A stretch of 64,000 nt of DNA from Eopsaltria australis (lineage: Eukaryota; Chordata; Aves; Passeriformes; Petroicidae): the NCBI GenBank assembly GCA_034509425.1, contig JAVTVJ010000667.1:1334819-1398818 (forward strand), read 5' to 3'. The notes under the pieces were generated by a model. The model worked only from the letters and a program-made list of their open reading frames with translations, did no database searches and was not told the DNA's origin. Position numbers and translations under genes: made by a program. This document shows, piece after piece, positions 7,618 through 47,200 of the stretch. The stretch's first letter is position 1. Each line of letters opens with the position of its first letter.

Positions 7618-7971
<354 letters not shown>

Positions 7972-13076: not shown

Positions 13077-15499
13077 CTGCAAGGCAAGCAGGATGGGGTG
13101 CAGCAGCAATCACCTCCTCCTGTGCATCAGGGGCCTTCAGCTGTCACAGATTTTAAAGGTGAAATGAACCTCTCAACATGGAATCAACAACCAAAGCAGA
13201 GCTTGTTTTTTGGTGGTAGATGAGGTCATTGGTTTTAAAAGTATGAGTGCAACACCAGCTGTTAAGGAATGATGGATGAGGAAGAGGCAAGTGGAAGAAT
13301 GACAACACTAATTAACAACACTGCAGATATGAAAATGGGATCCAAAGGGTGGGAAGTAGTCCATACCTCTTGCATATCTCAACATCCTCCTTTGCCTTCC
13401 AGTCCTACTGCCAAGCAGGGTGTGTGGGGAAGCAACTGCTGCTAGAGGGGAGATTGTGGGGAGTTTGGTGTCAGCAATTCACCCCTCTCCTGCAATGATG
13501 CACACGCCAAGACCAAGAAAACTGTGACTTCAGGGCTCCCTGGTGCCTATCCAAACCCCATCCCATGCTGTGGCATGAGCGCCCACACCACAGCTACATG
13601 GGTGTAATTTATTAAGCAGATAACTGGCTGAAGTAGAAGTTGTCTGTTGATGAGCAGCTGGAAGAATAAGAAATACTTTAACAAACACTGGGACTTTGAT
13701 TTTGTTCCTGAGTAGTCAGAGGTTCCCTCCAGTAGACTGAACCATGGGATTGATAGGAAAATTATGAGTTTGCACGAGGCACACCAATGGCACAACCTGA
13801 TTCAGAGGCTGCTCTGTGTTTACCCTCACAGCCTTATTTGGGGATCCTGGCTCCAAGGCAGCCCTGGGCTGCCAGGAACACTGCCTTGGGGAATGAAAAT
13901 GCTCTTTTCACATGCCTTTTTCCCATATCTTAAGTGTTCCACGCATTTCCTAGCCTATATTTAACTAGCCTGTTATGGTATCTAATTTGTATGGTCCATA
14001 TTTAACGGCGTTAAACAAACACTTGTAACTACTGTGAAATTACATGTTGACCTTCTAGTTGGCTAATTAAAAACCTTGAGGGGAAAAAGGCCACCTTTTC
14101 TGCACATGACAGCCAAAGCAGCTGATGAGTCTTTTTATTTCAAATTAGATGTAGCCTCTCTGTGTCAAAAGGTTATACTTAAAATCCATCTGCTTATGCC
14201 AGCATTATATCACATTTTCTCTTTACTTATTTCTGCAGAGCTCAAAATCTCATTGGGTCCATCAGCCTTAAGGTAAGAAATAACCTCCTGTCAGGGAAAT
14301 AGTTTTCCCTGAGGAATGTTGGGGACCTCATCACATGCAGAGTGGACAAACACATAAAAGCCATTACAAACACCAGCTCTTTTTGAGTCTCTGGAGTAGA
14401 AGAAAGGAGACATTGAATGTGTTTCTCAAGTCTCAGTTCTGCACACAACTTTACAAGAACAATACTGAAAACCACCTTCCACTGCAGAAAGGACTTAATT
14501 GAAAGTGGGAAACAGACTGGACCACGAATTATCAGTGGTCAGCAGTGGGCTTCACTGGGCATGTGACAAATGATCACAGTCACATCTTGGTGCAATGACC
14601 ATACCTGCTGTCTGGAACCCTTGTGTCCAACTCCTAAAATTGTGACAAGACCAGGGTTTTTGCCCTTTCTGTGTCCAGTCTAGACAAAGGCTAGTGAACA
14701 CTCATGAAGGCAGAGTTTAGATTCTCTTCAGCAACGGCCAAGGCCATAAACTGGTAATATAAACCCAATTTTTGGTAATTTCTGATGTCATCATCTGAGA
14801 TTTCTTAATGCAAAGGGCGGGGCAACACTTAAGCTACCTCCCACTACTTGCTGTGTTCACCAGGCTCTTTATGGCTACATTGGGCACCAGGAGCAAGGTT
14901 CACTTCTGAGGAAAATGAGAACATGGAATGAAGGCTAGAACTGGGTTTCATTAGTTAAAGGATCACCATTGGGGTCTCACAGGGGAGAACTTTCGTTTCA
15001 GAAACTGTAGCAATAATTTCTGATACAGCTGGTTCTTAATAATTCATATAAGTTTAAAAGAGGTTTTCAACAACCTCCTGTTGTTGTCTTACCAAAAAAG
15101 ACATCCCAAAGTACCAAAAGCTCTTTCAAGGTGTAAAGTGCCTGACTTTGTGAGACTTCCTTGGGTGTTTTGTACTGAAGAGGCTCAAGCAATTTCCACT
15201 ATTCTTAGCTGTGGGCACCAATTCAGAAATATTTCACCAAAATATTTGCCTGTACACAGAAATGCAGCTGGGTTTTGGAGACCTGATCCTGTAAAGTGTT
15301 GCATGCTTCTGGAAAACACTGACAGCCACTACTGGAAACCAGTGGTGCCAGGTAGTGGGGCTGAGCTGGAGCCATTTGGTGTTTCTGCACATGGGGCTGA
15401 AGTGAACATGAGTTAGAATGATGGGTGCAAGCCTGGTGTTAGGTGGCTTGGATGACATGAAAGTTAGATGTTTTCCAACCTAAGTGTACCTCATCTTAC

Positions 15500-15967
15500 T
15501 TTCATAGATCCACACAGGTGTGTCTAGAGCTTGTTGCGTTGGTTTGCTGGGCCTCCAAGCCGCTGTGCGGGCAGCAGCACAGATGGTTTCATCTGCTAAC
15601 GTCTTCCACCTGCTGAACTTGTCCTTCTCCCTCGAGACAAAGACCTTGTGGCCTCCCTCCTTGGTGCCAAGGTGGAAGCCCAAGCTCTGCAGAGTCAGGT
15701 GTCCCTTCTTGCTGCAGGACCATGCCTGGCGTTCCCGGTCTCCGCAGGGCTCCAGCTTGACCAGAGTGTGCTCGCGCGTCCTGCGGGCCGACAGGCAGTG
15801 CTTGGTGTGCAGGCTGACGATGGTGCCCGTGTCGGGGTCCCAGCCCCACTGCTGCTGCCGGGAGTGCTCCTTGCAGCTGGCCAGCCCGATGCTGCTGGTC
15901 TCGTGGGAGGCACGGATGCACTTTTCCAGCCGGGTGTTCCTTATGAGGAAGCCTTGTCCCTCTGCTA
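15500..15967 (-). CDS. Lectin-receptor gene, exon 2 (ricin-type beta-trefoil lectin domain)
   Basis: The exon is 468 nt, phase 1 at both ends. The acceptor (GATTGCACCGCAG) has a textbook branch point TACTAAAC about 25 nt upstream; the donor is GAAA|GTAAGA. The 156 residues open AEGQGFLIRNTRLEKCIRA and show three QxW-like repeats (QQW, QAW, SRW) with paired cysteines, the hallmark of a ricin-B beta-trefoil. The opening phrase FLIRN..KC is close to the N-terminal cysteine-rich domain of mannose-receptor family proteins, but no fibronectin-II or C-type lectin domains follow. The predicted role is glycan binding outside the cell. Ligand and gene identity are unknown. Confidence 0.88.
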
Positions 15968-17148
15968 CTGCGGTGCAATCAGAGCATGGTTTAGTACTGT
16001 GCACGTCGGAGGCAAACACATCTTGTAACGTTTTACCCTGGGGGAGGTAAGATGTAACCCACCAGTCCTTTCTTGGATGGGCATGCCTGAATAAACAGTT
16101 CCCACAACTTCCTGATTTACTGGAATGACATTTCTTTGGAAACAAGGAGTGTGCAAATAGCCATGAGCAATGCTAGAGGAAAATAGCAGTTACGTAACTA
16201 ATGAGGAAAAACATCTTTCCAACTTGAATGATTATATCAAATATCTGCCTCTCTGTATATTTAATTCAGTTCTTCAGCTGTTTTAACCAGGTAGCCATCC
16301 TTCCCTCTTTCCATGGGTTTGAGAGATCTTTTGCCCCTCTCCAGGTCAAATCTTTCTTATAAAAGAGCAGTTAAAATCCCCATTGTGCTGTTCATCTGGG
16401 GCCAACTAGGCCACCTTGGGCTACATTTTCTATTAAGTGACTTCTGGAGATATTAAAGCAGTGCAGGGATAAAACCATATCCCACCAGAAGTGTGTAAGT
16501 ACTTAGCTGAGGCAACTCATGTATGTATTGAAATTACCTTGGATTTAGCACACCTCCCATTGGTCTGTGCACTTCTGGAACATAGGTACCACTTTTAAAA
16601 ATCCTTTTGTAAGAGAGAGACGTTGCAGCTATCCCACAACAAACACACAATTTGAAGCAATTTCTGTGATTGCTTGTTGCTTTTAAGAGCAACAGGTCTC
16701 AGATGATGTAGGATGGATATCATCATGTGAGCTGGAGAATTACCACTGTTTTCACTATAAATTAATCAGATGTGGCCTGTGAATATCCTGAGCAAAATGT
16801 TGAGTGCAAAACCATCCATCACTGTTGCAGGTGTACCTTCTGCTGTGTATTTTATGCCTAAGATAGATGGATAGAAATAGAATATCTGAACATTCTGGGA
16901 AATCTTTTAATAACAACACATGGCAACTCCCAGCTTCTGCAGTGACGTTTTTTCTCTCTTTTCCCCAGGAGACAGAGTTATAAAAGCCCCATCAGCATAT
17001 AGTACTGAGCATTAAGGGTAAGAGGACACTGAAAAGTGATGTTAGGCAAGAACACTGATTTTTATCTAAACTATTTCTGCAGAGCTTCCCCTCCCAAAGC
17101 AAAAAAAAGCCCCAAAACAATACTGAGTCACTACAAGTATTTGGCTCA

Positions 17149-31305: not shown

Positions 31306-33402
31306 ATGGACAGTCAGATTACCCACCGCTTGGGAAAACAAGGAAACGTTCCAAAGAGTGATGACAAAGAAAGGCACTTGACTCAAAATGTCACACCGGT
31401 GAAGCAGAAGCCCTCCAAGGAGCTGAGGCCCATGCTGGGCGCCATCTTGCTGGGCCTCATCCTGTTCATCGCCGCGGTGGTGGCCTGGTGCTACTACACG
31501 GTGTCCCTGCGGAAGGCGGAGCGGCTCAAGACGGAGCTGATGGACCTGCGGGCGGACGGCTTCATCATCCGCAACCAGCACGGGGAGGTGGTGTTCCGGC
31601 TGGCCTTCCGCTCGGGCAGCCTGGACCTGGAGTCATGCTCCAAGGAGGGAGAGATCCTGAGCTGCTCGCGCTCCAGCCGGGGGCCGCTCAACTTCTTCAT
31701 CCAGACGGTGAAGCCCAAGGACACGGTGATGTGCTACCGCGTGCGCTGGGAGGAGCTGGCGGCCGGCCCGGCCGTGGAGCACACCATGTTCTGGGAGGAC
31801 GCCCACTGGTACGGGGGCTCGGAGATGAGCACCCAGCACTGGCCCATCCGCCTGGCCGGCTACCAGGAGCCCGTGCCCTACGTGACCAGCGACGTCTACT
31901 CCTTCCGTGACAGCTTTGGTGGCATCCTGGAGCGCTACTGGCTCTCCTCCAAGGCGGCGGCCATCAAGATCAACGACTCCGTGCCCTTCCACCTGGGCTT
32001 CAACGCCACCGAGCGTGCCCTCTTCTTCCAGGCCCGCTACAAGGACTCGCCCTACAAGCCCCCACCGGGCCAGCAGCCCTTCCCCGAGCTCAGCTACCGC
32101 GTCTGCGTGGGCTCCGACGTCACCTCCATCCACAAGTACATGGTGCGCAGGTACTTCAACAAGCCCTCCAAGATCCCTGCTGAGAATGCCTTCCGATACC
32201 CCATATGGTCCACATGGGCCCTCTACAAAAAAGATATAAACCAGGATAAAGTTCTGAATTTTGCAAGAGACATTAAGAAGTACCATTTTAACTGCAACCA
32301 CATTGAGATTGATGACATGTACACCCAGGCCTATGGAGACTTTGACTTTGACCCTGTCAAGTTCCCCAACGTAACAGAGATGTTTGCAAAGCTGAGGGAA
32401 GATGGGTTTAAGGTCACTCTGTGGATTCATCCTTTTATACACAGAGATTCGCCCAATTTTGGTGTGGGGATTGAGCGTCAGCTGTTCATCAAGGAGCCGT
32501 CAGGGCGGCTGCCAGCCATGGTGGAGTGGTGGAACGGCATTGGAGCCATCCTGGACTTCACCAACCCAGCAGCCCGTGACTGGTTCCAGAGCCACCTGCG
32601 CCAGCTGCGGCACAAGTACGGCATCTCGTCCTTCAAATTTGACGCAGGCGAGACCAGCTACCTGCCCAAGCAGTTCAGCACCTTCCGCCCGCTGTCAGAT
32701 CCCAGCATCTGGTCCCGGCGCTACACAGAGATGGCCATTCCCTTCTACGAGCTGGCCGAGGTGCGGGTGGGCTACCAGTCACAGAACATCTCCTGCTTCT
32801 TCCGCATCATTGACCGTGACTCTGTCTGGGGCTATGAGCTCGGCCTCAAGTCCCTCATTCCCACCGTGCTCACCATCAGCATGCTGGGGTATCCCTTTGT
32901 ACTGCCAGATATGATTGGTGGAAACTTCCTCCCCAACAAGACAGAGGGGGCAGAGGAGATCCCCGACCGGGAGCTGTACGTGCGCTGGCTGGAGCTGTCG
33001 GCCTTCATGCCCTCCATGCAGTTCTCCATCCCGCCCTGGCTCTACGACAAGGAGGTGGTGGAGATTGCGCAGAAGTTCACGGAGCTCCACGAGTCCCTGG
33101 TGGCCCCGCTGCTGCTGGAGCTGGCGGGGGAGGTCACCGACACGGGCGACCCCATCATCCGTCCCATCTGGTGGATCTCGCCCCGCGACGAGGCCACGCA
33201 CCGCATCGACTCCCAGTTCCTCATCGGGGACACCCTCATGGTTGCTCCTGTGCTGGAGATGGGCAAGCAGGAGCGGGATGTCTACCTGCCAGCGGGCAAG
33301 TGGCGCAGCTACAAGGGGGAGCTGTTTGAGAAGACCCCGGTGCTGCTCACTGACTATCCTGTTGACCTGGACGAAGTTGCCTATTTCCTCTGGGTTTCCT
33401 AA
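31306..33402 (+). CDS. MYORG paralogue, GH31 glycosidase (plus-strand copy)
   Basis: A 698-aa intronless coding region. MYORG is a type II membrane alpha-galactosidase of glycoside hydrolase family 31 in the ER/secretory lumen. Visible: a cytoplasmic N-terminus of 43 residues, a transmembrane helix at about 44-64, a beta-sandwich region, then the GH31 barrel with WSTWALY (about 301-307), EIDDMY, nucleophile D446 in FKFDAGE and acid/base D503 in [11 protein letters not shown]. These match human D463 and D520, so catalysis is probably intact. Sequons include NDS, NAT, NVT, NIS and NKT. An in-frame TGA at 31288 supports the start. Residues 1-29 are unlike human MYORG, while the rest is nearly identical to the minus copy at 42195-44231. 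The active-site windows 309-331, 374-383 and 532-550 differ between copies; the second departs from human, so this is probably the derived paralogue. Confidence 0.95.
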
Positions 33403-33420
33403 CAGGCTCCTCATCAGCTG
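31391..33420 (+). repeat. Inverted repeat, left arm (MYORG duplication)
   Basis: About 2.03 kb pairs with 42176-44206 in opposite orientation (position p pairs with 75597 minus p across the coding region). The arm begins at TCACACCGGTG, the point where the two N-termini stop differing, and fades about 18 bp past the stop codon. The spacer is about 8.8 kb. Outside three short windows the arms differ by only scattered, mostly silent changes. Confidence 0.93.
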
Positions 33421-33563
33421 TGCAATGGACTCATTGATTAGTTTTCCAATGGCTTTAATGAACTGGGAATTTTAATAATTTTTGAAGTAGCAATAATTCA
33501 GAAGGAAATTTGATGGAAACAATGAAACCTCTGTTCTGTGTGGCAAGTGTTCTACAATAACTT

Positions 33564-33569
33564 ATTAAA
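33564..33569 (+). terminator. Candidate poly(A) signal of plus-strand MYORG copy
   Basis: ATTAAA about 160 nt after the stop at 33400-33402. If used, the 3'UTR is very short, unlike the likely long 3'UTR of the minus copy. No cleavage evidence is available. Confidence 0.35.
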
Positions 33570-34499
33570 ATGTATTGGATGGGTGTCTTTGTTACTGCAG
33601 TGTGACAAGTGTAATGTATAGAAACACAGTCTCTGCTCATAATCTTTTCCCACCAAGAAATGCCATACACGCTTCTTGTGTCTAAAGGCAATTACACGAG
33701 CTCCTTTGTTATCCAGCCTCATAGATGATCCCCTGGGACACTGAAAATTTCATGTGCTTAGTGAAGGAGGCAGCTGCAGCACAGTACATTTTTTTTTTTT
33801 TTACAAAAAGCAGCCTGTGGTTATCCTGAATAGGAAGGCACCCGATTTTCAGCCTGCACATCAGATGGGAGCTGATGCAGGAGTTAAGAGTTTGCATTTC
33901 CCATGGCTTGAGCTATCTGAGCAGGAAGAAAGGTACAGCAGTTGCTAGTGCTGTGGCAGCTGTTTTCCCCCTTTTATAAATTACTGAGAATCATGCCCAT
34001 GGTGTGCATTCAGGTAAGCCTTTAAAACGTGGTGAAATCTCATGGCAGTCAAGATTAAATCCTAGTACCAAGTCATGCAGGGGTTTATACTTAGTAGGAT
34101 CCATGTGTGTTTTGGGACCATGTTTAGGCCAAAGGATGCAATCTGTCAGATGCCAGGAGAGAACTTGGTCTCCTCAGAGAGTTCAGATAATTAACAAACC
34201 AGCCAGAGTGCCTGGTTGCCTCAATTTCCCCATTGAGAATGTTTTTCCATCCTGTGTTAATGGAGATCCCTGCCCATGACAGATGGATTCTTCTGTATCC
34301 TTCTGCCCATAGAGGTGACCTCTCCAGAATGAAGGTGTCTCAGCAGCTCCTGAAGGCTTGGGGTGACCAGGTGTCCTCGGTTAGTCAGGAGGGGTCAAAA
34401 TCTAGGAAATTACCTATGCTGCAGGAAGGGATATAACTTCCTTCCTGAGAGAGAGAGTCAATAACCAGGTAGTTTTAAGGATTAATATGTAGGTAAACC

Positions 34500-35960
34500 A
34501 ATTAAAAAGTTGATTATATATGAGCAGAGAACCTCTGAGCCTCTGCCTCTTTTTGCCTGCTGTTGCTCAAAGTGAAGCAGCTCCTCTGCTTCTCTGCCGG
34601 GTAAGGCTGGGCACTCTGGGCCTTCTTCTTCCCCTCCTTCCCCCAGAGGTGGGTGGGAAGGGAGGTTTATGGCAGCCGTGCCGCTGCAGCCGGGAATGGG
34701 GGAGGAACCGGCTGGAATGTTCAGCAGATCCAGCTCAGCCGCTGTGCCAGCTACACGAGACAGGGCCAGGCCCCTGCTCCGGGCCAGGCAAGGACCGGGC
34801 CGGCTCCATCCAGCTCGGGCCAGGCCCTGCCCTGTCACCCCGGGCCCAGATGGCCCCAGCAGGCCGAGCCAGCTCCGCAGAGCCGGGCACAGAGACTCTG
34901 AGAGCTTCTGGCATCCAGCTGGGACCTGTTCAAACAGCCCGGCAGGGAGCACGGGATCATCACACTGCCAGAGAGAGACAGAGATTGACTCTATCCAGGC
35001 CTGGACTAAACTCACAGACACCCATCCTTCCTTACACAGAGAGAGGAACGAGTGAGGACATCGACATAAATGCAGCATAGAGACTTTACAGTCAGTGAGG
35101 AAAGCAGAACCAATGCCTAGTGGGAGGTGCATGAGAAGTGCTTTGAGAGTGAAGCTGAAAATTCTTTTAGAGAACCATGGCTGGGGACTGAGCTAATAAA
35201 TTCCCTGTAATATATGAAGACATAGTCCAAAGGGGGGATGTGAGGTTCTAATTGCAGCCAGTGAACTGAAACACCTGGATAAGGACAAGCAAGTGTTGAA
35301 ATAAGTACAGCCTGATGAGAAACCTGAACCAAGAGAGAGGAGAGGCTGTGACCCAGAGCCCTGGTCCCCGGGCGGGGGGAAATGCCAGGGAACTTGTGTT
35401 GTCAGGAGAACAGAAGAAGGCATTTTCTTTGTTGCTGCAATTGAACTGTTCGTCCTTGAAAAGGTACCCCATAGGCTGTCATGACCCACCATAGTGACTG
35501 TGGGAAGGCTACTGGTGTGGCAGGATCCACCACGAGCCGATCTTTCCTCCCAGGTGGCTGCTGGTGGTGAGGCTGAAGACCCATAAAAAACTGTATTTTC
35601 TTACAGAGAATCCATGGTATAAGCAAAAGACACTTCTCTCCCTAAATGAGCTGAGACAAAGGCTATTTCAGAGGTAATAAACTGACTGGAGGTCGAAGTG
35701 TTGTCTTTTGTGTGTTGTCAGGGAGAAAGAAATGGAGAGGTGGGGAAGGACGGGTGGTCTGAGGAGTTTGTTCTGGTTCTTCTTGTTTTTTTCCTCTTTT
35801 CCTCTTTGTCTTAGGTATATTAATAAACTTTCTTTATACTCTATAAAGTTTGAGCCTGCTTTTCCTACTCCTAATCCTCATCTCACAGCAAACATCCGGT
35901 AAATTTTGGTAAGTGTGCTGGCATTTGGCCAGAAACTCGAATAGGCAAACTGGAAACCAC
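34500..35960 (+). mobile_element. Probable solo LTR of a songbird endogenous retrovirus
   Basis: The stretch has the look of songbird ERV LTRs: a GC-rich 5' part with Pro/Gly-like islands (34620-34880), a middle part, and an R/U5-like end with AGAGGTGGGGAAGGA, a T/C-rich run, TTAATAAACTTTC (poly(A) signal near 35820), GAGCCTGCTTT and a distal CTGGCATTTGGCCAG. I see no gag, pol or env frame on either side, so it is a solo LTR or a non-autonomous element. Both ends and any target-site duplication are undetermined. It sits in the spacer between the two MYORG arms. The family assignment comes from recalled pattern resemblance, not a search. Confidence 0.65.
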
Positions 35961-35969
35961 TATACCAGG

Positions 35970-38140
35970 CTGGCTGTGAAACACTCTCCACTCTTGGTCC
36001 AATGTTTCCTGCTGTTTTTAAGCAAAAAGAAATTTTAAGTTGACACAACTGATCAGTTTAAGAGAGTCCAGGGGTCTCTGGGCTGCAATGTGCCTTCCCA
36101 AAGTGAGAGACAGATCACTTTGCTGGCTCCAGCACACTTCCAGTGGGCACATGGGAGGTAAAGCTGTGTGGGGCCCCAGGGCAAGAGAAATCTCCTTTTT
36201 TCAGGGGTTTGCTGCTGACCTGCTCCATGCAAAAAGTAAACAAAATGAGTCTGGGGAACACTGCACTCAGTTGAGAGCTTCTTGGTGCCCAGGGGAAGCA
36301 GACCCAAACCTGTTATCTATCAGTAGGTCCATTTTGTCATGAGGACCCAGCATGGACACCACAGTAGTGCCAATGAGATGAGCCAGAACATCTTTTAGAT
36401 GCCCCTGAAAGCAGCTGGAATTGCACTAATGCTATCGCTGGTGTGGCAGTGGGGAGGGAAAACCAGCCTTCATCCAGGGATGTGAAAGGGGAAGCAATGT
36501 TCAGTCTGGCAGTTGTGCTGAGGGTTAACAGGACACCACTGAATTCTTACCATGGGCTTTCTCCCATGCCAGGATAGTAGTTTCCAACGATGCATCTCCC
36601 CCAAGGCTGAGGAAGTGTTTCTGCAGCTGCTGCTTTGAAGTCCCAGGTAATCCCTGACATCTGGTCTTAGGGGAACCAGAGGGTCCCAGGGTGGCCCAGC
36701 AAAATTCCTCTGGCTGTTGTTGCTGCACTAAAAAAAAAGATTTTCTCATGGGCAAAGCTCATGCCCACAGTGCTGAGGAGATCTGGGAAAGCCAGACTCC
36801 ATCACCCTCACACAGCACCTCTGCCCCTGTGATCAGTGTGCTCTGCATGCACTCTCAGCTCTGCCACCCACCTGCACCACAGGCTGATGGGGAAAGAGCC
36901 AGGCAACACTGAGACTTCCTGTAGACCCTGGGGATGACATGGGATGCCTGGTCCCATGGCTGTGAAAAAGTCTCCCCTATCCCATCCCTTCCCAATCTGT
37001 CCCTCAGTGCCTTTCCCTGCTGTTCAGCTGAGCCACAGGAAACTAAAGGGGACAGGTGCTGGAGGCATCCTGTGAGCAGGTGGCACCACAGTCACCTCTC
37101 CACACTGTCCTGCCACACAGGGGCTGTGTGCTGCTGGAGGGATATCTTGTTTGCCTTGCTAAGCTTCAGTCCTGGTTGCTTTTTTGCACTCCCAGTGCTG
37201 TGCACGAGCTTTTTGCTGGAGGTGCTGATGACATGAGAGTCTCACCCAGAACTGGGCTTGCCACAGGCTGCCTGTTTTTTTTAGCAGGGGGAGTTTACTG
37301 CCCTCTTTGATGATTGCTGAGCTAAAAAACACCCAGCCCTACAGGCAAAATAAAAAACCCAAACAAATAAAAATCTGTTTTTCTCTACTTGGCCTCTGGG
37401 ATTTTGTGTCAGCACAAACCATCTTTATGGCTCCCCGGCACAAGGGATCTGCAGGCTGGCAGCTCCTCCCCAGATTGAGAAGGTTGTTTTTTCCTGAGGC
37501 TTTCAGCTCGGCCATGTGCCCAAAGGAACTCTACTGCTGTCAGTTTGTCCTTTCACCACAGTTTCCCCCCCCCCACCCCGCCTTGGGCTCTGCCTGCCTG
37601 TTGGCTTTTTTCTTACTTTTAATCAAAGCTGTGATTTCAGGCAGGCATGGACACGCTCACAGCTTGGGTCTCCTGGGCCAGCAGCCACTGCTCTGCTGTC
37701 AGCCATAGGCACCTCCTTGAGATCCAGTTTGCAACAAGTTTGGCTTCTGCTGTAGCCCGTCTGGTGTTTGGATTTTACCACTAACACTCCTCCCTGTGCA
37801 ATGCACAGCTGTGGATGTGTTCTCAAGCAGTGCCATGTAGCTGGGACCCAGCACAGAGCTGACCCCACGCTCTGTCCCCATGTCCATGGTGAGCCTCAGA
37901 CACACTCTCTACACGCTGCAACTGTTTTTGGGAGGATGTAAACCAAGCTCAAATCCAAAGCACTGATTCCTAGGAGGACCTCTGCATCACTGAGGATCTC
38001 CTGCAAGGCTGTGAGTGCTCTAAGCTGCCAACCTGCCCGCAGGTCTTCAGCAGTGCCAGCTTCATCCCCCATGTGATCATCAGCCAAGTGTGGATGGCAC
38101 TCACACCCAAGGAAGAAGTCAAAGGAAAAACATTGGGAAA
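35970..38140. other. Spacer between MYORG copies, no gene recognised
   Basis: No coding exon, repeat family or CpG island is visible. A short C-run (CCCCCCCCC-type) lies near 37565. Confidence 0.5.
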
Positions 38141-38146
38141 ATGTCT

Positions 38147-38152
38147 TTTATT
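38147..38152 (-). terminator. MYORG: Candidate poly(A) signal of minus-strand MYORG
   Basis: Canonical AATAAA on the minus strand, about 4.0 kb past the stop codon. It would define a long 3'UTR; the ATTAAA near 39750 is the alternative. Confidence 0.4.
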
Positions 38153-41100
38153 GCAAAAGGAGTGAAATGAAGTCCCTCTCAACCCTCAAGCCACGCTGAA
38201 TGTGTTGGCCACTGCTAGTGATGCCCAGTGGCATAAGGCAGCTATAGTTTGTGTGGTAACAATGGAAAGGGAAGGAAAAACATTATCTGGGGCAAAGGGG
38301 GTGATGTGGAGCAAGGCAGGCTCCTAAATGAGTCTCACATACTCCTTCCTGGCACTCCCATTGCCATAAACATCTACTCCATCCAGGTCCTTGCTGTCAG
38401 TGCCATCTGCAAAGGGGCACCATGGGACAGTCAGAAGGACCTTCTGTAGTGCCCAAGGGAAGTTGAGAACGCTCCTCTTGATCATCCCCTACAAACACTC
38501 TCGAAGTGTGTGTCCTCTGAGAGCAGCATGGACTAGCAAACCCCCCATAGTCAGAGTTGATAAACCTTTTCTTGAGTTGGATGTCAGTAGAAATAGGGCC
38601 ACAATCCTAAAGGTGTGTATGGTCCCCAACCCCTGGGGGCTGACACAACACTGGGGTTCACCTGGACATGGCGTTTCCCAGGCCAGCCCTGAGGCACAGC
38701 TAGTCTCTTTGCTGTCAGGACCTAAGGGAAGATAATGCTCAATCCAGTGGGATTGTCTGCCACTACTGCAAACACAAGAGTGGGGTTAATGCCAGCTTCT
38801 CCTTTTAAAACATACATCAAAGCTGCAGGCTGCAAGCTTTAAATAAAACAACAATCTCAACCCTGATTTCAGTGAAGACTAGGGTAAGAAAAGCCCCAAA
38901 ACTCCCTGAACCACCAGCCCCACCAACTTGTTAGAGATGGACATAGTTAAACTTCTTTTTGTTTTCCAAAATTTTATCTCAATCAAGGTGATTCATGTTA
39001 CAGTTCATACCAATTAGGAATTAGAAAAGTGGTTAAAAACAGACCCACCAGCATTACAGTCTGACATAGGACAGCATGTACAAACACAAGCATCCAGAAA
39101 ACCTGATACACAACAGTGCAAGCTTCAAAATTCAATCACTTAAGCATCATGTGTGAAAAGGCTAAATCCAACTCCCAAACCTGGTTTGGGGCTTTTTCTT
39201 GGCTGAGACAAGCTAGACCCAGCTTTGGCCAGTGACCCACGGTGTAAATCACAGAAATATCTCTAGCAGCAGTTCCCAAGGTATCTGTGCAGAGCTTCTG
39301 GTCTGCAAGGTCTGAGAGATCCTCAAGTCTTGCAGTGCTACAGCATAGTGTTAGAAATAGTGATTTTGGTAAAAAGTTGGATGGAAAGGGCACCTAGAAG
39401 CCGGTGAGACAGCTTAAGGCAGCACTGCTGAGCCTATCCCCAACATCAGCTCTTAGTCTTCTCAGTAGGTTTATCTTTTTCCTTGCAGGACCACTGAACA
39501 GCCATGTTCACTTGTGCCCGTATTACAGCATTTAGAAAAATAAGGGTACTCTATAATCTTACCCATTCATTGATATAGTTAAATAAAAGCTATTTATAAC
39601 TTTGTTAATAAAATGCTTTCTTTTGAGGGGAGGGGAAAGAAGACAGTGTGTCTAATGGAGAATTTCCTCCATGACCTTCCTGACAGTGCCTGAAAGGAGA
39701 AACCACTGAAAGGAGATTGAAGGCACTCATCTGGCTGCTCCCATCATTTTAATAGTGGAAAGATAATAACAGGGATGCTGTGTTTCTCTTCACACAGCCT
39801 CATTCCTCATGAGTGATGCATATGGTGAGTGGCACAGAACCAGGCCAAGAGAAGACAATATCTCATGGTCATGCCAGGATCCTTCCCATGAAGTCCTGTG
39901 CTAAGGATCCCAATTCTGCACTGGCAGCTGAGCTGTGCAGCAACATCTCCTCCACCTAATGACTCCCAAGACAAAGGATGATAAGTATTTCATGAGCAAA
40001 GGTTGAAAGGGAAGAGCTGGAACCTGTCAAAGCATGGTCTTCATGCACTTCTGGGGCTGCAGAAGCCCCCTCCATGCCTGGCCCTTCTTGAAGGCTTTGG
40101 CCAGACTCATCTCCTCACCTTCAATGCCACCCTGCAAGCAAGGGCCAAATCCTGCCAGTGCCCTGATGAGTGACACTGAGGTTCCAGGATTAACTCCTTG
40201 CCAGAGGGTGTCTGTAACTTGTAACATAACCATTATTTGCACCAGTGGCCAGGAAGAAACTTGAGTCCTTCAGAATTAAAAGCCTGAGAAACAAACACGC
40301 TTTGGGAAACGCTTGTGCTTCAGCTGGGCAGGAACGTATAAGGCTCCCCTACATCTCATTTTGAGATGAAATTATACAGGGCAGATCCAGGTCTTAAGGG
40401 ATGACCTAAAGAGTCCATCAAACCAGACTTCCTCACTTCTGAACTACAAAAGCATTTCTGATTTTGCCCCTAACACCAAAATTTCTCCTCCTGCACCCCA
40501 TCACAAAACTCAAGCTTAGTGCATCTCTTTTCCTGCCTTCTGAAAAGCTCTGTGGTAGGAAATGGGCTTTGAGAAAGATCCTCATTGGTACCTAACCCTA
40601 CCCAAAACATGCACCATCTCCCTGGGTGGACAACTTGTGCCAGACCCACGTCCAGCCCAGACGCAATCCCAGGAGAAGCCCCATAGATGCTGAGCTGTCC
40701 TTGGCTGGCTGTAGCCTGGGCAGGGTGCCCCAACCCTTCCCAGCCATCACAGTTCAATTCTGCAAAAGCTCGTTAAAAATTCAGGGGCTGACACATGTTC
40801 CCAGCCAGGGCAGAACTGGGAATTCTTGCCTTAGGGAGGAAGGCTGCCAGACTTCAATCCTGTTTGCCCTGCCTCGGATCTCTGTAAATGCATTTTCCCG
40901 TACAAAACCAAATGGGAAATCTGCCAAAGAGGCAGCTGCTGGGGACTTGGGGGGCAGGATCACATCACCCCATGCACCCTCCAGAAGCCTCTGACAGCAA
41001 TCCCACCTCCAGCAACACCAACGCTGCCTGAGGAAGGTCCCTGGGACTCTCAAATGGAGAGAGGGGGGCTGACTCAGGAAAACCCCCAACAAAATCATCA

Positions 41101-42194
41101 TCTCTATCAGCAACCTGAGATGAGTATTAACTTAACTTGGCATTGGATGAGAACATTTCTGTGGGTGCAGTGAGAACACCCGCTGGCACAGACCCAGCAG
41201 CTCATGGAGTGGTGTTTTCCACCCACAGGGAAGCCGGCTATCGGCAAACGCCGCTGTCAATCCGCGGCACGTGCCGCTCGCGGGAACCGGCTGTTCCCGG
41301 GGAAGCACGGAGTGTCTGAGGACAGCTTTGCTCCAGGCAGCCCTTCTGCCAGCAACAAATCTCATCTGTCCTTAAAAACCAAAAAGGATGGTATCAGCAG
41401 GATAGTCATGTAACTGAGGGGGGTCATAAATGCTTAAAAAATGGTACAGGCGGTGCTGCTCTAGGAAAGGCAATGTTGATGCCCTGAGCAAAACACACAG
41501 GCAAGAGCCTTGCAGAGGGAGTCAAATGGGTGAGCAGGTGGGATGCAGCTGTCCCAGCAGAAAATAAGCAACCCATTCAGTTAAAACACATGGACATCAC
41601 TTGAGTGACCTGGCCTGCCTGGTATCCAGGAAAGCAGGAGCCTGGGGCAACTGTTAGTCCAGTGCCATGCCAGGGAAAAAGGGGAAAAAATAGGTGTGTG
41701 TATATATATTGCAACTCTATTTTGTTTTATGCTCTTAAAAATATCTGTTTGAATATATTTGCCATATTAGAAAACTCAGGGCAGGCTGTGCTGCAGCAAC
41801 CCTTCCATAGCACACACCCCCATACCCAGTGCCAGGTGCTCCCACAAGACTAGAAATGTTTCCCACTGGCACTAAGCAACTTCCAGCTCTTGAAATCCTT
41901 GAGAACTGAAAAGGTATTGGTTTTACTACATGTCTGCAGACAGACTGACAACTCCTTTCTGACCTATACAGATAAATTGCTGCCTATTGCAATCCAATCA
42001 GAGCCTACCACCAGACCCCAATTAAAAAAAAATCAAGATCAATCCCCAAATAAAAAAAAAAAATTATCCCCAAGTGAAGTCTATTTAGTTCCCTTCCTCC
42101 ACCCCAGTCTCAAATGAAATGTGCAATTAGAGTTATTATTTGTTAAAAAGTCCTAGGTAAGGCATGGTTATTCCAAAGCTGATGAAGAAGCCTG
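38147..42194 (-). other. MYORG: Likely long 3'UTR of minus-strand MYORG
   Basis: Downstream of the stop of the minus-strand copy there is no coding sequence for 4 kb. The hexamers I noticed are an ATTAAA (minus) near 39750 and a canonical AATAAA at 38147-38152 in an A/T-rich context (TGCAATAAAAGAC). Human MYORG also has a long 3'UTR. The extent is inference. Confidence 0.4.
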
Positions 42195-44206
42195 TTAGGA
42201 AACCCAGAGGAAATAGGCAACTTCGTCCAGGTCAACAGGATAGTCGGTGAGCAGCACCGGGGTCTTCTCAAACAGCTCCCCCTTGTAGCTGCGCCACTTG
42301 CCCGCTGGCAGGTAGACATCCCGCTCCTGCTTGCCCATCTCCAGCACAGGAGCAACCATGAGGGTGTCCCCGATGAGGAACTGGGAGTCGATGCGGTGCG
42401 TGGCCTCGTCGCGGGGCGAGATCCACCAGATGGGACGGATGATGGGGTCGCCCGTGTCGGTGACCTCCCCCGCCAGCTCCAGCAGCAGCGGGGCCACCAG
42501 GGACTCGTGGAGCTCCGTGAACTTCTGCGCGATCTCCACCACCTCCTTGTCATAGAGCCAGGGCGGGATGGAGAACTGCATGGAGGGCATGAAGGCCGAC
42601 AGCTCCAGCCAGCGCACGTACAGCTCCCGGTCGGGGATCTCCACTGCCCCATTGGTTTTATTGGGGAAAAAATTGCCCCCTATCATGTCAGCAGATATGA
42701 AGGGATACCCCAGCATGCTGATGGTGAGCACAGTGGGAATGAGGGACTTGAGGCCGAGTTCATAGCCCCAGACAGAGTCACGGTCAATGATGCGGAAGAA
42801 GCAGGAGATGTTCTGCGACTGGTAGCCCACCCGCACCTCGGCCAGCTCGTAGAAGGGAATGGCCATCTCCGTGTAGCGCCGGGACCAGATGCTGGGGTCT
42901 GACAGCGGGCGGAAGGTGCTGAACTGCTTGGGCAGGTAGCTGGTCTCGCCTGCGTCAAATTTGAAGGACGAGATGCCGTACTTGTGCCGCAGCTGGCGCA
43001 GGTGGCTCTGGAACCAGTCACGGGCTGCTGGGTTGGTGAAGTCCAGGATGGCTCCAATGCCGTTCCACCACTCCACCATGGCTGGCAGCCGCCCTGACGG
43101 CTCCTTGATGAACAGCTGACGCTCAATCCCCACACCAAAATTGGAGGAATTGTAGTTTACGAAAGGGTGAGTCCACAGAGTGACCTTAAACCCATCTTCC
43201 CTCAGCTTTGCAAACATCTCTGTTACGTTGGGGAACTTGACAGGGTCAAAGTCAAAGTCTCCATAGGCCTGGGTGTACATGTCATCAATCTCAATGTGGC
43301 TGCAGTTAAAATGGTACTTCTTGATCTTTTCAGCAAACCGCAAGAGTTTATCTTGGTCAATATCATTCTTGTAGAGGGCCCATGTGGACCATATGGGGTA
43401 TCGGAAGGCATTCTCAGCAGGGATCTTGGAGGGCTTGTTGAAGTACCTGCGCACCATGTACTTGTGGATGGAGGTGACGTCAGAGCCCACGCAGACGCGG
43501 TAGCTGAGCTCGGGGAAGGGCTGCTGGCCCGGCGGGGGCTTGTAGGGCGAGTCCTTGTAGCGGGCCTGGAAGAAGAGGGCACGCTCGGTGGCGTTGAAGC
43601 CCAGGTGGAAGGGCACGGAGTCGTTGATCTTGATGGCCGCCGCCTTGGAGGAGAGCCAGTAGCGCTCCAGGATGCCACCAAAGCTGTCACGGAAGGAGTA
43701 GACGTCGCTGGTCACGTAGGGCACGGGCTCCTGGTAGCCGGCCAGGCGGATGGGCCAGTGCTGGGTGCTCATCTCCGAGCCCCCGTACCAGTGGGCGTCC
43801 TCCCAGAACATGGTGTGCTCCACGGCCGGGCCGGCCGCCAGCTCCTCCCAGCGCACGCGGTAGCACATCACCGTGTCCTTGGGCTTCACCGTCTGGATGA
43901 AGAAGTTGAGCGGCCCCCGGCTGGAGCGCGAGCAGCTCAGGATCTCTCCCTCCTTGGAGCACGACTCCAGGTCCAGGCTGCCCGAGCGGAAGGCCAGCCG
44001 GAACACCACCTCCCCGTGCTGGTTGCGGATGACGAAGCCGTCCGCCCGCAGGTCCATCAGCTCCGTCTTGAGCCGCTCCGCCTTCCGCAGGGACACCGTG
44101 TAGTAGCACCAGGCCACCACCGCGGCGATGAACAGGATGAGGCCCAGCAAGATGGCGCCCAGCATGGGCCTCAGCTCCTTGGAGGGCTTCTGCTTCACCG
44201 GTGTGA
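42176..44206 (-). repeat. Inverted repeat, right arm (MYORG duplication)
   Basis: This is the partner of 31391-33420. The three divergent windows lie at 43299-43367, 43143-43172 and 42642-42698. Past the stop codon the arms diverge after one 3-bp length difference. Confidence 0.93.
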
Positions 44207-44231
44207 AGCTCTCTGGCAGGAAGGTGTACAT
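42195..44231 (-). CDS. MYORG: MYORG, GH31 alpha-galactosidase (minus-strand copy)
   Basis: A 678-aa coding region in one exon (acceptor CTCCTCTGCAG, exon from 44256). The N-terminus [19 protein letters not shown] closely follows human MYORG from its internal Met, and the loop [10 protein letters not shown] also matches human, so this copy is the better orthologue. Transmembrane helix about 24-44; nucleophile D426 (FKFDAGE), acid/base D483 ([11 protein letters not shown]). Known role: type II membrane alpha-galactosidase of the ER/secretory pathway, and loss causes brain calcification in humans. Odd point: the motif LPDM, present in human and in the plus copy, reads SADM here (residues 513-516, L and P replaced by S and A). 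A TAG lies in frame 15 nt before the ATG, which fixes the start. Confidence 0.96.
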
Positions 44232-44256
44232 GGTGCTGCGTTTTCTCTAGAGCTTT
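44232..44256 (-). promoter_or_regulatory. MYORG: MYORG 5'UTR segment with shared upstream-ORF stop
   Basis: This is the 25-nt 5'UTR part of the coding exon. It carries TAG at 44247-44249, 15 nt before the MYORG ATG. Joining it to either candidate first exon (51337 or 48696) makes a short upstream ORF that ends at this TAG. Confidence 0.5.
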
Positions 44257-44259
44257 CTG

Positions 44260-47200
44260 CAGAGGAGTGGGAAGGAAGCACGCCTGGGGTTCTCAGGAGA
44301 AGACAACGGATTGTTAGGAGAGTTCCCACCTCCACCATGTCCCAGAACACCTGTCTCTGAAAAAGGAGAGGATATAAATAGTCTGAGAGAACCTCTGAAT
44401 CAAGGGACTATGTGTCATCCATTTGCTCCCCCTGTCCCTCTCTGCCCATCTGTGACGTGCCAGGTGCCGTGTTCCAAGAACCAGACACCATCTCCAGTTA
44501 TTCCAGGCAAGACAACACATGCGGAGGACAGCCTGAGCCCTACACAGGGAACAGCCCCAGGGCAACAAGGACCAAATCACTGCCATATTTAATGCTTTTT
44601 TGTTGTTGGGAAGACTTTCAGTGAGGCAGGAGTGGAGACTGGGTGGCAGCAGAAGGAGGCTGAACAGGATCCAGATCAGCCCACTGACAGAGTCTTTAGG
44701 AGACAGGGATAACTAAGAGCTATAAAAGACATCACGCAATGAATTCCACACAGCCACTCCTAATTTTAATCATACTGCCTCCCTGGCATATTTAATTCAT
44801 CTGCAGCAATATCCCCTCTTTGTCCCAAGCATGTCCTAGCTGCTCCACTTGGATGATGCTTTGCAGTGAAGGTGGGTAAATCCCTGCTTCTCCACAGCTC
44901 ACAGAGAGCCAAATGGGGCTGGGGTACCAGTGGCTCATGTCTGGTTTTCGGGGGCATGTAGGGGGTGCAGTGAATGGCACAGGATGGCTGGCTCCTGCTG
45001 TGTGCTCAGAGCTTTACAGCAGTTCTGGGCAGAAAAGAACTTCCAGCTTTTCTGGCAGAAAAGTTAACCTTGTAGGAAGTGAGCAGTGCAGGATCTCCAA
45101 AGGGCCCTTCCTCCATCCAGCAAGGCTCCAGGCTGTGTTTCAGCTCCAGCCCACTCCCCCCTGCGTGGCCCCGGGGAAGTGGGCTGTGCCAAGAGCCTAA
45201 TGGCTTTTCCTTGGCCACGGCCTGGCTGGGCTCCGCCAAGCATAACGCCCGGGATCCAGGGGGGAAAAGTAAAGTGAGGACATGGGAGAGCAAGAAACAA
45301 ACACAGCTGCAGGAGGAGTAGGGGAGGGAGAGGAGCTGCAAAGCCGCAGACCAGCTGCCTGATGCCAGCAAACACAGCCGCCTCCTCCCCAAGCTCTGGG
45401 GCTGCAAACCTGCTGGCTGTGGGCAAACCAGAGGGAAAAAGTCCTCTTTTTGGGCACAAATGAAACCAGTTGCAGAGACTCTCTCTAAAGAGGTTGTTTT
45501 TTTTTCTTAACAAAAAGGCAAAAAAGATCCAAAATGAATTACAGAACCCTCTCCCTGCCACAGGCAGGCAATCCAGAACTTGTATTTCTCTGTGCCTCAA
45601 ACAGATCCTTCTCCCCAAGAAAGGAAAAGCAAAGCAGAAAGGGGTCCTGAACACCACCTAAACCTTGTTGCTCCACTACAGGGATAGCCATGTGAAAACC
45701 CACAGCAGCACCTGTGCACAGGCTCAACAAAACTTTCTGTGTTTATATTCACCTTGAAGCACATATAGGACAAGACCTTGCAGTTGGGGGAGCTTTTTTG
45801 TGCAGCCAGACGGGTCATTCTAACCTTCCCCTGGGAGCCAGTAACTTTCTAGACAGCCAGTTGCTTTAAATGGGATTACAGAGGCATTAGGAAGCGATTA
45901 GCCTGAACAGGCGATAGGTTTAGTTAAACGACTTGTCCCACGGCCAACTCCCACAGAGCCCTCAGTTGCCAGCAGGGAGCTCGGGCATGGGATGGGGACA
46001 GCTCCAGGCTGGACACTCCAACTGTGTCACCCAGCACCAGGTCCTGCCCCCCAGAAGGGCAACGGGGCTCTCACCCACCCAGTGTTTGTGATGCAAGGCC
46101 AGCTGAGCCCAGCCAAAATGGGGCAATAGAGACAGGGAGGTGGTGATGGGATGAGGCTGTGTTTGGGATAAAGCTTCATCCCTCTCTCAAGTCTTCCTTG
46201 GCTTTAGGGTGCACCAGAAGCAGCAAAGGGCTATCCCAGGGATGGAGGGGGAGGAAGGTTTGCAGAAGGACCTTGGCCAAAACCAGCACAGCTGAGCAGA
46301 GCTGCAAGTGGCAGGATGCTTCTGGAAATACAGACAGGTACGCTGAGCCCAAACAAGCCCTCGCCTCTCAACACTGGGAGGTTTTGGGATGCCAGAGAGA
46401 GAGGGACATGCAAATACCTGTCACTCCAGAGGCATGCCCATGTCTCACTCATGCCTTATCTGGGGACTGCAAACCTCAAGGGGGAAAAAAAATAAAAAGG
46501 AGCCCTCCACCGAGCAGGACTTTCAAATTACTTGGGAGAACAATTTTTTTGAATTTACACGTTTTCTTTACAAAAAAGAGGGGAAATTGGTGTTTTCTTT
46601 GCCAACTCTCATTCAGGGCATTAAGCCCTGAAGTATCTGATACTGCTGTTGTGGCTCCATCTAAAATTGACAGCAGCTCCCACGGCTTCAGGGAATTTCT
46701 GGATTTTTATCTCCCTTTCAGGAAGCTGGTTTATTATTTATGAACTACTTCGAAGCTATTCTATTTTTAGGCTGTTTCTTTCTTTTCCCCCCACCATGGA
46801 CTCGAGCTTATGGCACACATGAGGGAGCCATCACCACCACTGTCAGCAGAGAAATAATGTGGTTTTTAAGGAAGGTTTTGCAGCCTCTTGAGTTCCCTGG
46901 ACACTGATCTGCCTCAGAGGGATGTACAAGCTGGGTGATTGAGCTGGTGGACTTAATCCTGCTCTGACTGCTGTGGCTGGGTCAGGATCAAACCCTGTGG
47001 CTGCTGATGGACATTGCCCACTTGGACACCATTTCAACAAAGATGCTGAGAAAGGTGTTTGCAGGCATCACCCGGCACAGTGAAGGGCCAAGGAGGTCTC
47101 CAAAACCAATCCTGGTCTGTGTCCTCTATTTTTTTGCCTTGTTAACAGAATTTATGTTCTCCAGTGGGAGATTTGGCTCTGTCCCAGGTGAGAGCTAAGT

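Follow-up and report, generated by a model that had tools for sequence, protein, structure and literature searches.

Three short islands spared from gene conversion in an inverted MYORG gene pair of a passerine bird

What keeps two neighbouring genes different at a few sites when nearly all the rest of their sequence has become the same? The question is raised by a pair of MYORG-type genes of Eopsaltria australis, which encode glycosidases of family GH31 and lie within a stretch of 64,000 nucleotides (GenBank assembly GCA_034509425.1, contig JAVTVJ010000667.1, positions 1,334,819 to 1,398,818 of the forward strand). This stretch is the whole window that was analysed; 'windows 1 to 3' below are the parts in which the two genes differ. 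The genes are convergent, tail to tail, with 8.8 kb between them. The plus-strand coding sequence (CDS; 31306..33402) specifies 698 amino acids and the minus-strand CDS (44231..42195) 678; both are intact open reading frames (ORFs) with matches to the Pfam families PF01055 and PF21365. Judged by protein comparison, the minus-strand gene is MYORG (paralogue M), and the plus-strand gene is a second sauropsid paralogue, MYORG-like (paralogue L). The best explanation of the pattern described here, and in our judgement a probable one, is gene conversion between MYORG and MYORG-like with islands spared by selection.

Differences between the copies lie in three windows

The two inverted arms, of 2,021 nt each, are 97% identical. 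Arm 1 (31391..33411, plus strand) comprises CDS and nine further bases, and arm 2 (42186..44206) lies on the minus strand. In a blastn comparison that took in about 5 kb on either side of each gene, homology between the two loci was limited to the CDS and a few bases past the stop codon (31391-33426 against 44206-42170). Over 669 aligned codons the proteins differ at 20 residues, one of which is I/V at 87; the other 19 fall at 309-331, 374-383 and 532-550. An earlier note, made from the letters of this DNA alone, had given these counts and had stated that both catalytic aspartates are kept in each copy. The counts were exact on recounting, and the nucleophile Asp446 (human Asp463; 32641..32643, plus strand) and the acid/base Asp503 (human Asp520; 32812..32814, plus strand) are indeed identical in L and M.

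Window 1 covers codons 308-331 of L (human 325-348; 32227..32298, plus strand), which span the loop after strand 1 and helix alpha1; its counterpart in M, paired by arm position, is at 43299..43370 (minus strand). Window 2 covers codons 374-383 (human 391-400; 32425..32454, plus strand), at the end of a barrel strand and the start of the dimer insert. Here L lacks Tyr397 and the Asn398 sequon (human numbering), and M (43143..43172, minus strand) retains Asn396, Tyr397 and the Asn398 sequon. Window 3 covers codons 531-550 (human 548-566; 32896..32955, plus strand), a predicted strand (beta7 by count) and the next loop; in M (42642..42701, minus strand) it reads [11 protein letters not shown], in common with snake MYORG. 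The 42 codons that separate windows 1 and 2 (32299..32424, plus strand) show no difference between the copies.

Silent sites follow the same partition. Windows account for 54 of the 669 codons and hold 19 of the 30 silently differing ones (hypergeometric P = 1.8e-15); among 62 nucleotide differences in total, 13 lie outside the windows, and one of these is beyond the stop codon. A comparison of synonymous divergence (dS) along the arms, which the earlier note had proposed, gave 2.82 in the 54 window codons versus 0.026 in the 615 flank codons. By window, dS is 1.74 in window 1 and 0.72 in window 2, and silent sites are saturated in window 3. The ratio of nonsynonymous to synonymous divergence (dN/dS) in the windows is about 0.08 (0.233/2.82). 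Because window dS far exceeds flank dS, the windows must be old and the remainder recently overwritten. Plain purifying selection without conversion was rejected, since silent sites in the windows are saturated.

The islands are only about 27-69 bp each within 2 kb of near identity. When uniform neutral conversion was simulated (four tract lengths, 200 runs each), the oldest 30-bp block reached at most 10.1 times the mean age, whereas the observed value is at least 38 times, with window dS set conservatively to 1. Uniform neutral conversion thus does not yield the island pattern.

Flanks and windows give opposite trees

Trees were built from 38 rows, with L represented by 9 bird and 12 squamate or tuatara sequences and M by 3 bird sequences and 14 others. 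From 32 bird rows, 12 were picked, with mosaic and partial rows omitted and Anas, whose window 3 is mostly L-like, kept as M. In the flank tree (585 columns), the 12 bird rows of both kinds form one clade (99/96), and the grouping of all L rows is rejected (log-likelihood difference 80.5; approximately unbiased (AU) test, p = 0.0001). By contrast, the pooled window tree (54 columns) places the 9 bird L rows together with the 12 squamate and tuatara L rows (100/99) and rejects a bird clade (AU p = 0.036). With five mosaic rows restored in a second set (P0003, P0006, P0007, P0009 and P0014), all 17 birds form one clade on flank columns (100/97); on window columns the bird clade is again rejected (p = 0.026), and the non-mosaic L rows split off at 94/97.

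Residue identities agree with the trees. Bird M departs from the squamate L consensus (60% or more) at 54 flank sites, and bird L agrees with bird M at 52 of them, compared with 5 of 14 sites of the same kind in the windows. The windows' small gap between bird L–bird M and bird L–squamate L identity was matched by none of 300 random sets of flank blocks. Flank identity between L and M in this bird is 0.998, against 0.986 for L and Catharus, 0.974 for L and Numenius, 0.995 for M and Anas, and 0.980 for M and Vidua. Outside the islands, then, paralogues within a species are closer than orthologues between species, as measured in the one species with both copies.

Base composition as a likely record of the exemption

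G+C content at third codon positions (GC3) is 0.88 in the flanks of both copies and falls to 0.44 (L) and 0.54 (M) in the windows (Fisher p = 1e-12 and 3e-9); at flank codon usage the window residues would be expected to give 0.87. With distance from a window, GC3 of the L copy runs from 0.43 inside through 0.73 at 1-10 codons to 0.72, 0.87, 0.92 and 0.92. G+C content is 0.48-0.53 in the spacer and in the 5-kb flanks of the genes. Elevated GC3 in converted parts is described as an accepted mark of biased conversion (PMC2720389, PMC1274310). We read the GC3 dips as parts long exempt from conversion, and their contrast with the flanks as a footprint of GC-biased conversion.

The case for gene conversion with spared islands is therefore strong. 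The proposal in the earlier note that conversion homogenised the arms and exempted the three windows stands on silent divergence, the opposite tree signals and the GC3 pattern. Its expectation that windows would group by paralogue and flanks by species holds for the pooled windows and, for the flanks, within one species and at the level of birds; it fails in part, in that single windows are weak and mosaic records stray. The note had also named selection as what keeps the windows different. The exemption itself is carried by dS, trees and GC3, and selection is its likely cause.

A second sauropsid paralogue and its marks

Among the matches listed by the protein searches, the L protein is 97% identical to Catharus ustulatus 'myogenesis-regulating glycosidase-like', and the M protein matches bird, snake (86%), amphibian and lungfish MYORG. 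Diverged MYORG-like proteins are also present in lizards, snakes and tuatara, 70-80% identical to the M protein among these matches; no named turtle or crocodile row is among them. On flank columns, the 12 squamate and tuatara L rows (11 lizards and the tuatara, with no snake) form one group (94/94), which defines the second gene independently of the windows. The motif PF[IV]H at 376-379 occurs in 20 of 20 lizard, snake and tuatara MYORG-like rows, and LPDMIGGNF at 533-541 in 18 of 20. In an alignment of 148 sequences, two of them the proteins of the stretch and 146 fetched, 40 have His at residue 379, 103 have Asn-Tyr at 379-380, and five have another residue or a gap; the His-379 rows that carry an organism name (all but P0129) are sauropsid.

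The copies have further marks at their amino termini. L has a private N-terminal tail (31306..31390, plus strand) that lies outside the homogenised arms and begins MDSQITHR, a type common to 'MYORG-like' records of other birds; by analogy with human MYORG it may be cytosolic. The M protein starts MYTFLPE, as in a snake record and several amphibian records.

Among chosen, named, non-mosaic rows (22 M and 29 L), human site 396 holds Asn in every M row and His in every L row. At site 397 all 22 M rows have Tyr and none of the 29 L rows does, and the Asn398 sequon occurs in 19 M rows but in no L row. The Asn346 sequon is gone from the L copy and from 22 of the 29 L rows. Under an 85% rule, six sites are fixed for different residues in squamate L and other M, and of these 396 alone still distinguishes L from M in birds. 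Window 2 has its older state in the M copy; in window 3, L has the older LP and M the derived SA. Two other glycan sites, human 372 and 511, occur in 9 and 11 of the 29 L rows versus 21 and 22 of the 22 MYORG rows, respectively; the L copy of the stretch carries both, as if restored by conversion.

A probable history and the observations against it

The following history probably accounts for the data. An old sauropsid duplication produced MYORG (minus strand) and MYORG-like (plus strand), here inverted and tail to tail. In birds, GC-biased conversion between the CDSs repeatedly overwrites one copy by the other, probably mainly MYORG into MYORG-like, and has wiped out nearly all L-specific residues. 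Conversions across the three windows would more often than not have been purged by selection, so that the windows would retain old amino-acid and silent differences and their old base composition. The protected differences would most likely serve, first, paralogue-specific assembly and glycosylation through window 2, with Tyr397 and the Asn398 glycan lost and Asn396 replaced by His, and second, fine substrate fit through window 3, beside the pocket; window 1 would be mostly outer surface. Of this history, the sequences directly show the islands, the age of their silent differences, the conflict between flank and pooled-window trees, the drop in GC3 and the lost glycan site; the role of selection, the direction of overwriting and what the differences mean for function are inferred.

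Several observations weigh against this explanation. L and M states are mixed in 11 of 32 bird rows. Of the 11 rows with an L tail, 7 have all three L windows (10 have an L window 1, 9 an L window 2 and 8 an L window 3), the exceptions being Turdus and Cyanoderma with an M-like window 3, Columba with an M-like window 2, and Aptenodytes, M-like in every window. Among the 8 rows with an M tail, Struthio has an L-like window 2 and Anas a mostly L-like window 3, and 5 of the 13 rows of unassigned tail are mixed (Heliornis, Glareola, Vireo, Nothoprocta and Tyto). These mosaics may be real conversions or short-read assembly chimeras; they mean either that selection is relaxed in those birds or that the records are chimeric. 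If they are real conversions, there is no physical block to conversion in the windows, but selection is not absolute.

The trees and the base composition also have weaker points. With mosaics included, the window tree does not recover all L rows as a group (p = 0.16 against the grouping). Window 1 alone groups L at 83 but is compatible with the bird clade (p = 0.44), and its identity to squamate L is equal for bird L (0.534) and bird M (0.533). Window 3 alone rejects the bird clade (p = 0.018) but without grouping all L, and window 2 has too few columns for a tree of its own. At codon positions 1 and 2, too, G+C content is lower in the windows (0.36/0.33 versus 0.49), and from codon 200 on, the flank-only trend of GC3 with distance is weak in L (p = 0.06) and modest in M (p = 0.009). 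Another sequon near 398 is found in 2 of the 29 L rows (tuatara and Lerista). Finally, part of the naming of the M and L groups came after the windows had been seen, so the residue counts describe the groups and do not test them.

Where the windows sit in the protein

In human MYORG, the residues described as contacting the sugar are D213, W321, D353, D354, W426, K461, R504 and R517, and the catalytic residues are D463 and D520 (PMC9491548). As expected of a MYORG-type GH31 alpha-galactosidase, the barrel and C-terminal domains are present and all eight pocket residues are kept. Seven were mapped by alignment; D213 corresponds by a +17 offset to Asp196, which is Asp in both copies and an invariant column across 57 rows. 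None of the named pocket or catalytic residues is among the 20 differences, with D213 and the printed R507 placed by the +17 offset. The whole human dimer interface is described as lying in an insert at 393-436, where Tyr397 is hydrogen-bonded to Glu407 and the glycan on Asn398 is adjacent (PMC9491548). The M copy has both Tyr397 and the Asn398 glycan site. In the L copy, these positions are Arg and Asp; because both features are absent, the plus-strand gene is named MYORG-like here.

Secondary structure was taken from a second predicted model, of the M copy, with a mean predicted local distance difference test (pLDDT) score of 88.5; in the first model, pLDDT was below 50 across window 3. Barrel strand numbers other than beta1 are our own count. 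In the prediction, 5 of 7 changes in window 1 lie on or directly ahead of the outer helix alpha1, window 2 runs from a strand end into the dimer-forming insert, and the first three changes in window 3 coincide with the three residues that form a strand (beta7 by count). Window 3 alone plausibly adjoins the sugar pocket.

These positions bear on the alternative that the earlier note had favoured, in which selection protects the windows as tuners of the sugar pocket and the pair has two substrate specificities. Each window does start close to the C-terminal end of a predicted barrel strand (1, 3 and 7 by count). The first change in window 1 is five residues past Trp321, the galactose-selecting residue, and the first three changes in window 3 are on the predicted strand right before the conserved Asp of DMIGGN. 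Against the claim that the windows line the pocket, no residue that PMC9491548 names for the pocket differs, most changes in window 1 belong to helix alpha1 or its approach, and window 2 is within the insert that forms the whole dimer interface. Two sugar specificities are not supported as stated, and we regard pocket tuning as doubtful; altered dimer contacts and glycosylation are preferred to it.

For conversion with selection-spared islands, a fuller formulation can be offered tentatively, as a possibility suggested by the sequences. Sauropsids may have a second MYORG enzyme whose identity resides in its private N-terminal tail and three islands, the rest being rebuilt from its sister by conversion. 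Chief among the island differences would be a changed dimer interface that lacks the Asn398 glycan; it would prevent cross-pairing of the two enzymes or direct them to different partners, and the GC3 dips would record the sites that selection protected.

Barriers, artefacts and recent duplication

An explanation without selection is that the windows were already the most diverged parts and that local mismatch halts conversion there. Conversion does require local identity, and the windows are the most diverged blocks. However, the islands are short within a near-identical 2 kb, not one of the 42 codons between windows 1 and 2 differs, and single windows appear overwritten in Turdus and Cyanoderma (window 3) and Columba (window 2). 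If those records are sound, they show that there is no absolute barrier to conversion, and we consider the mismatch explanation improbable.

An assembly artefact, in the form of a chimeric arm or of polishing that equalised the flanks, might be suspected because near-identical inverted arms are error-prone and other birds have mosaic records. Yet both N-terminal types and both window states recur in independent bird records, and the flanks of MYORG-like are bird-like in 9 bird rows. Such an artefact, which we hold to be very unlikely, would affect no more than the precise value of flank dS (0.026).

A recent duplication, after which three loops evolved fast under positive selection, would explain why the protein differences are packed into three short stretches, but it can be dismissed, as silent sites in the windows are saturated, dN/dS is about 0.08 and the paralogue already exists in squamates and tuatara.

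Comparison with known gene pairs

The process has precedents. In the primate long- and middle-wave opsins, neighbouring duplicates that arose about 30-40 million years ago have been homogenised by conversion save for a divergence peak in exon 5 at function-setting residues (PMC3924837, citing Teshima & Innan 2008). That account describes one peak, whereas the MYORG pair has three, with saturated silent sites, in one unbroken CDS. The MYORG pair also differs in that its duplication predates the bird–squamate split, its copies are inverted and its windows show a GC3 dip. Concerted evolution that has persisted for long in one part of a gene pair is likewise described for BMP8A/B, DDX19A/B and TUBG1/2, of which BMP8A/B is inverted, as here; converted parts have higher GC3, not significantly so for BMP8A/B (PMC2720389). 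In those pairs specific segments are converted with, in that account, no clear tie to functional domains, whereas here nearly the whole CDS is converted and short islands are spared. What makes the present case unusual is the combination of three islands in one CDS, a duplication older than the bird–squamate split and a record in base composition. Our literature search, which did not extend to subscription papers and preprints, found no published report of this MYORG paralogue pair.

The closest characterised enzyme is human MYORG, a GH31 alpha-galactosidase (PMC9491548; PDB 7qqf, 7qqg, 7qqh), which shares with the bird copies its fold family, its two catalytic residues and the pocket residues named above; the L copy differs from it in its N-terminal tail and in having neither Tyr397 nor the glycan sites at Asn398 and Asn346. 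Another bird pair in alpha-galactoside metabolism with differing substrates is the two pigeon Gb3/CD77 synthase paralogues; these are glycosyltransferases, and the available account gives no link to MYORG (PMC8466213).

A sister enzyme that differs at few sites points to residues important beyond the catalytic centre; at the dimer insert, Asn396, Tyr397 and Asn398 are immediately testable candidates. To our knowledge, neither the natural substrate nor the partner of MYORG, a brain-calcification gene, is established. Glycans containing Gal-a1,4-Glc are described as not currently known in humans (PMC9491548). The pair is also an unusually clean case, in that amino acids, silent sites and base composition of one CDS all mark where conversion was allowed. 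If this explanation is true, GC3 dips could reveal hidden functional sites in other converted gene pairs.

Other features of the stretch and of MYORG records

The spacer between the convergent genes (33412..42185) holds no clear protein gene in an ORF list read by eye or in a Pfam scan of one ORF, which gave no match, and a gene in the spacer was rejected for want of a clear candidate there. An Rfam scan returned no matches. Long ORFs run antisense to both genes (31633-32442, minus strand, 269 amino acids; 43167-44360, plus strand, 397 amino acids) and are most likely by-products of the very high GC3. A NUDIX-domain exon at 7618-7968 (plus strand; E = 6e-15) is probably NUDT2, which we take to be a neighbour of human MYORG. 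An ORF at 15483-16172 (minus strand) has a Ricin-type lectin domain (E = 2e-15) and is perhaps the last exon of a GalNAc-transferase.

The start codon of the M gene (44231-44229, minus strand) corresponds to human MYORG Met35. Snake, amphibian and lungfish records also start at the Met matching human Met35 (MYTF/MYSF). MYTF stands at residue 35 in a gibbon protein and at 25-34 in other mammals, and coelacanth and shark records have extra residues ahead of the MYTF/MYSF Met. The brain-calcification mutations M35V and M35K are described as unexplained (PMC9491548). From these alignments, Met35 may be the true MYORG start codon, in which case M35V and M35K would simply abolish translation. In predicted proteins of deer and cattle (P0042-P0046 and P0066), MYORG is fused to a PF15181 domain, presumably that of a gene neighbouring MYORG; these fusions reflect either read-through or annotation error.

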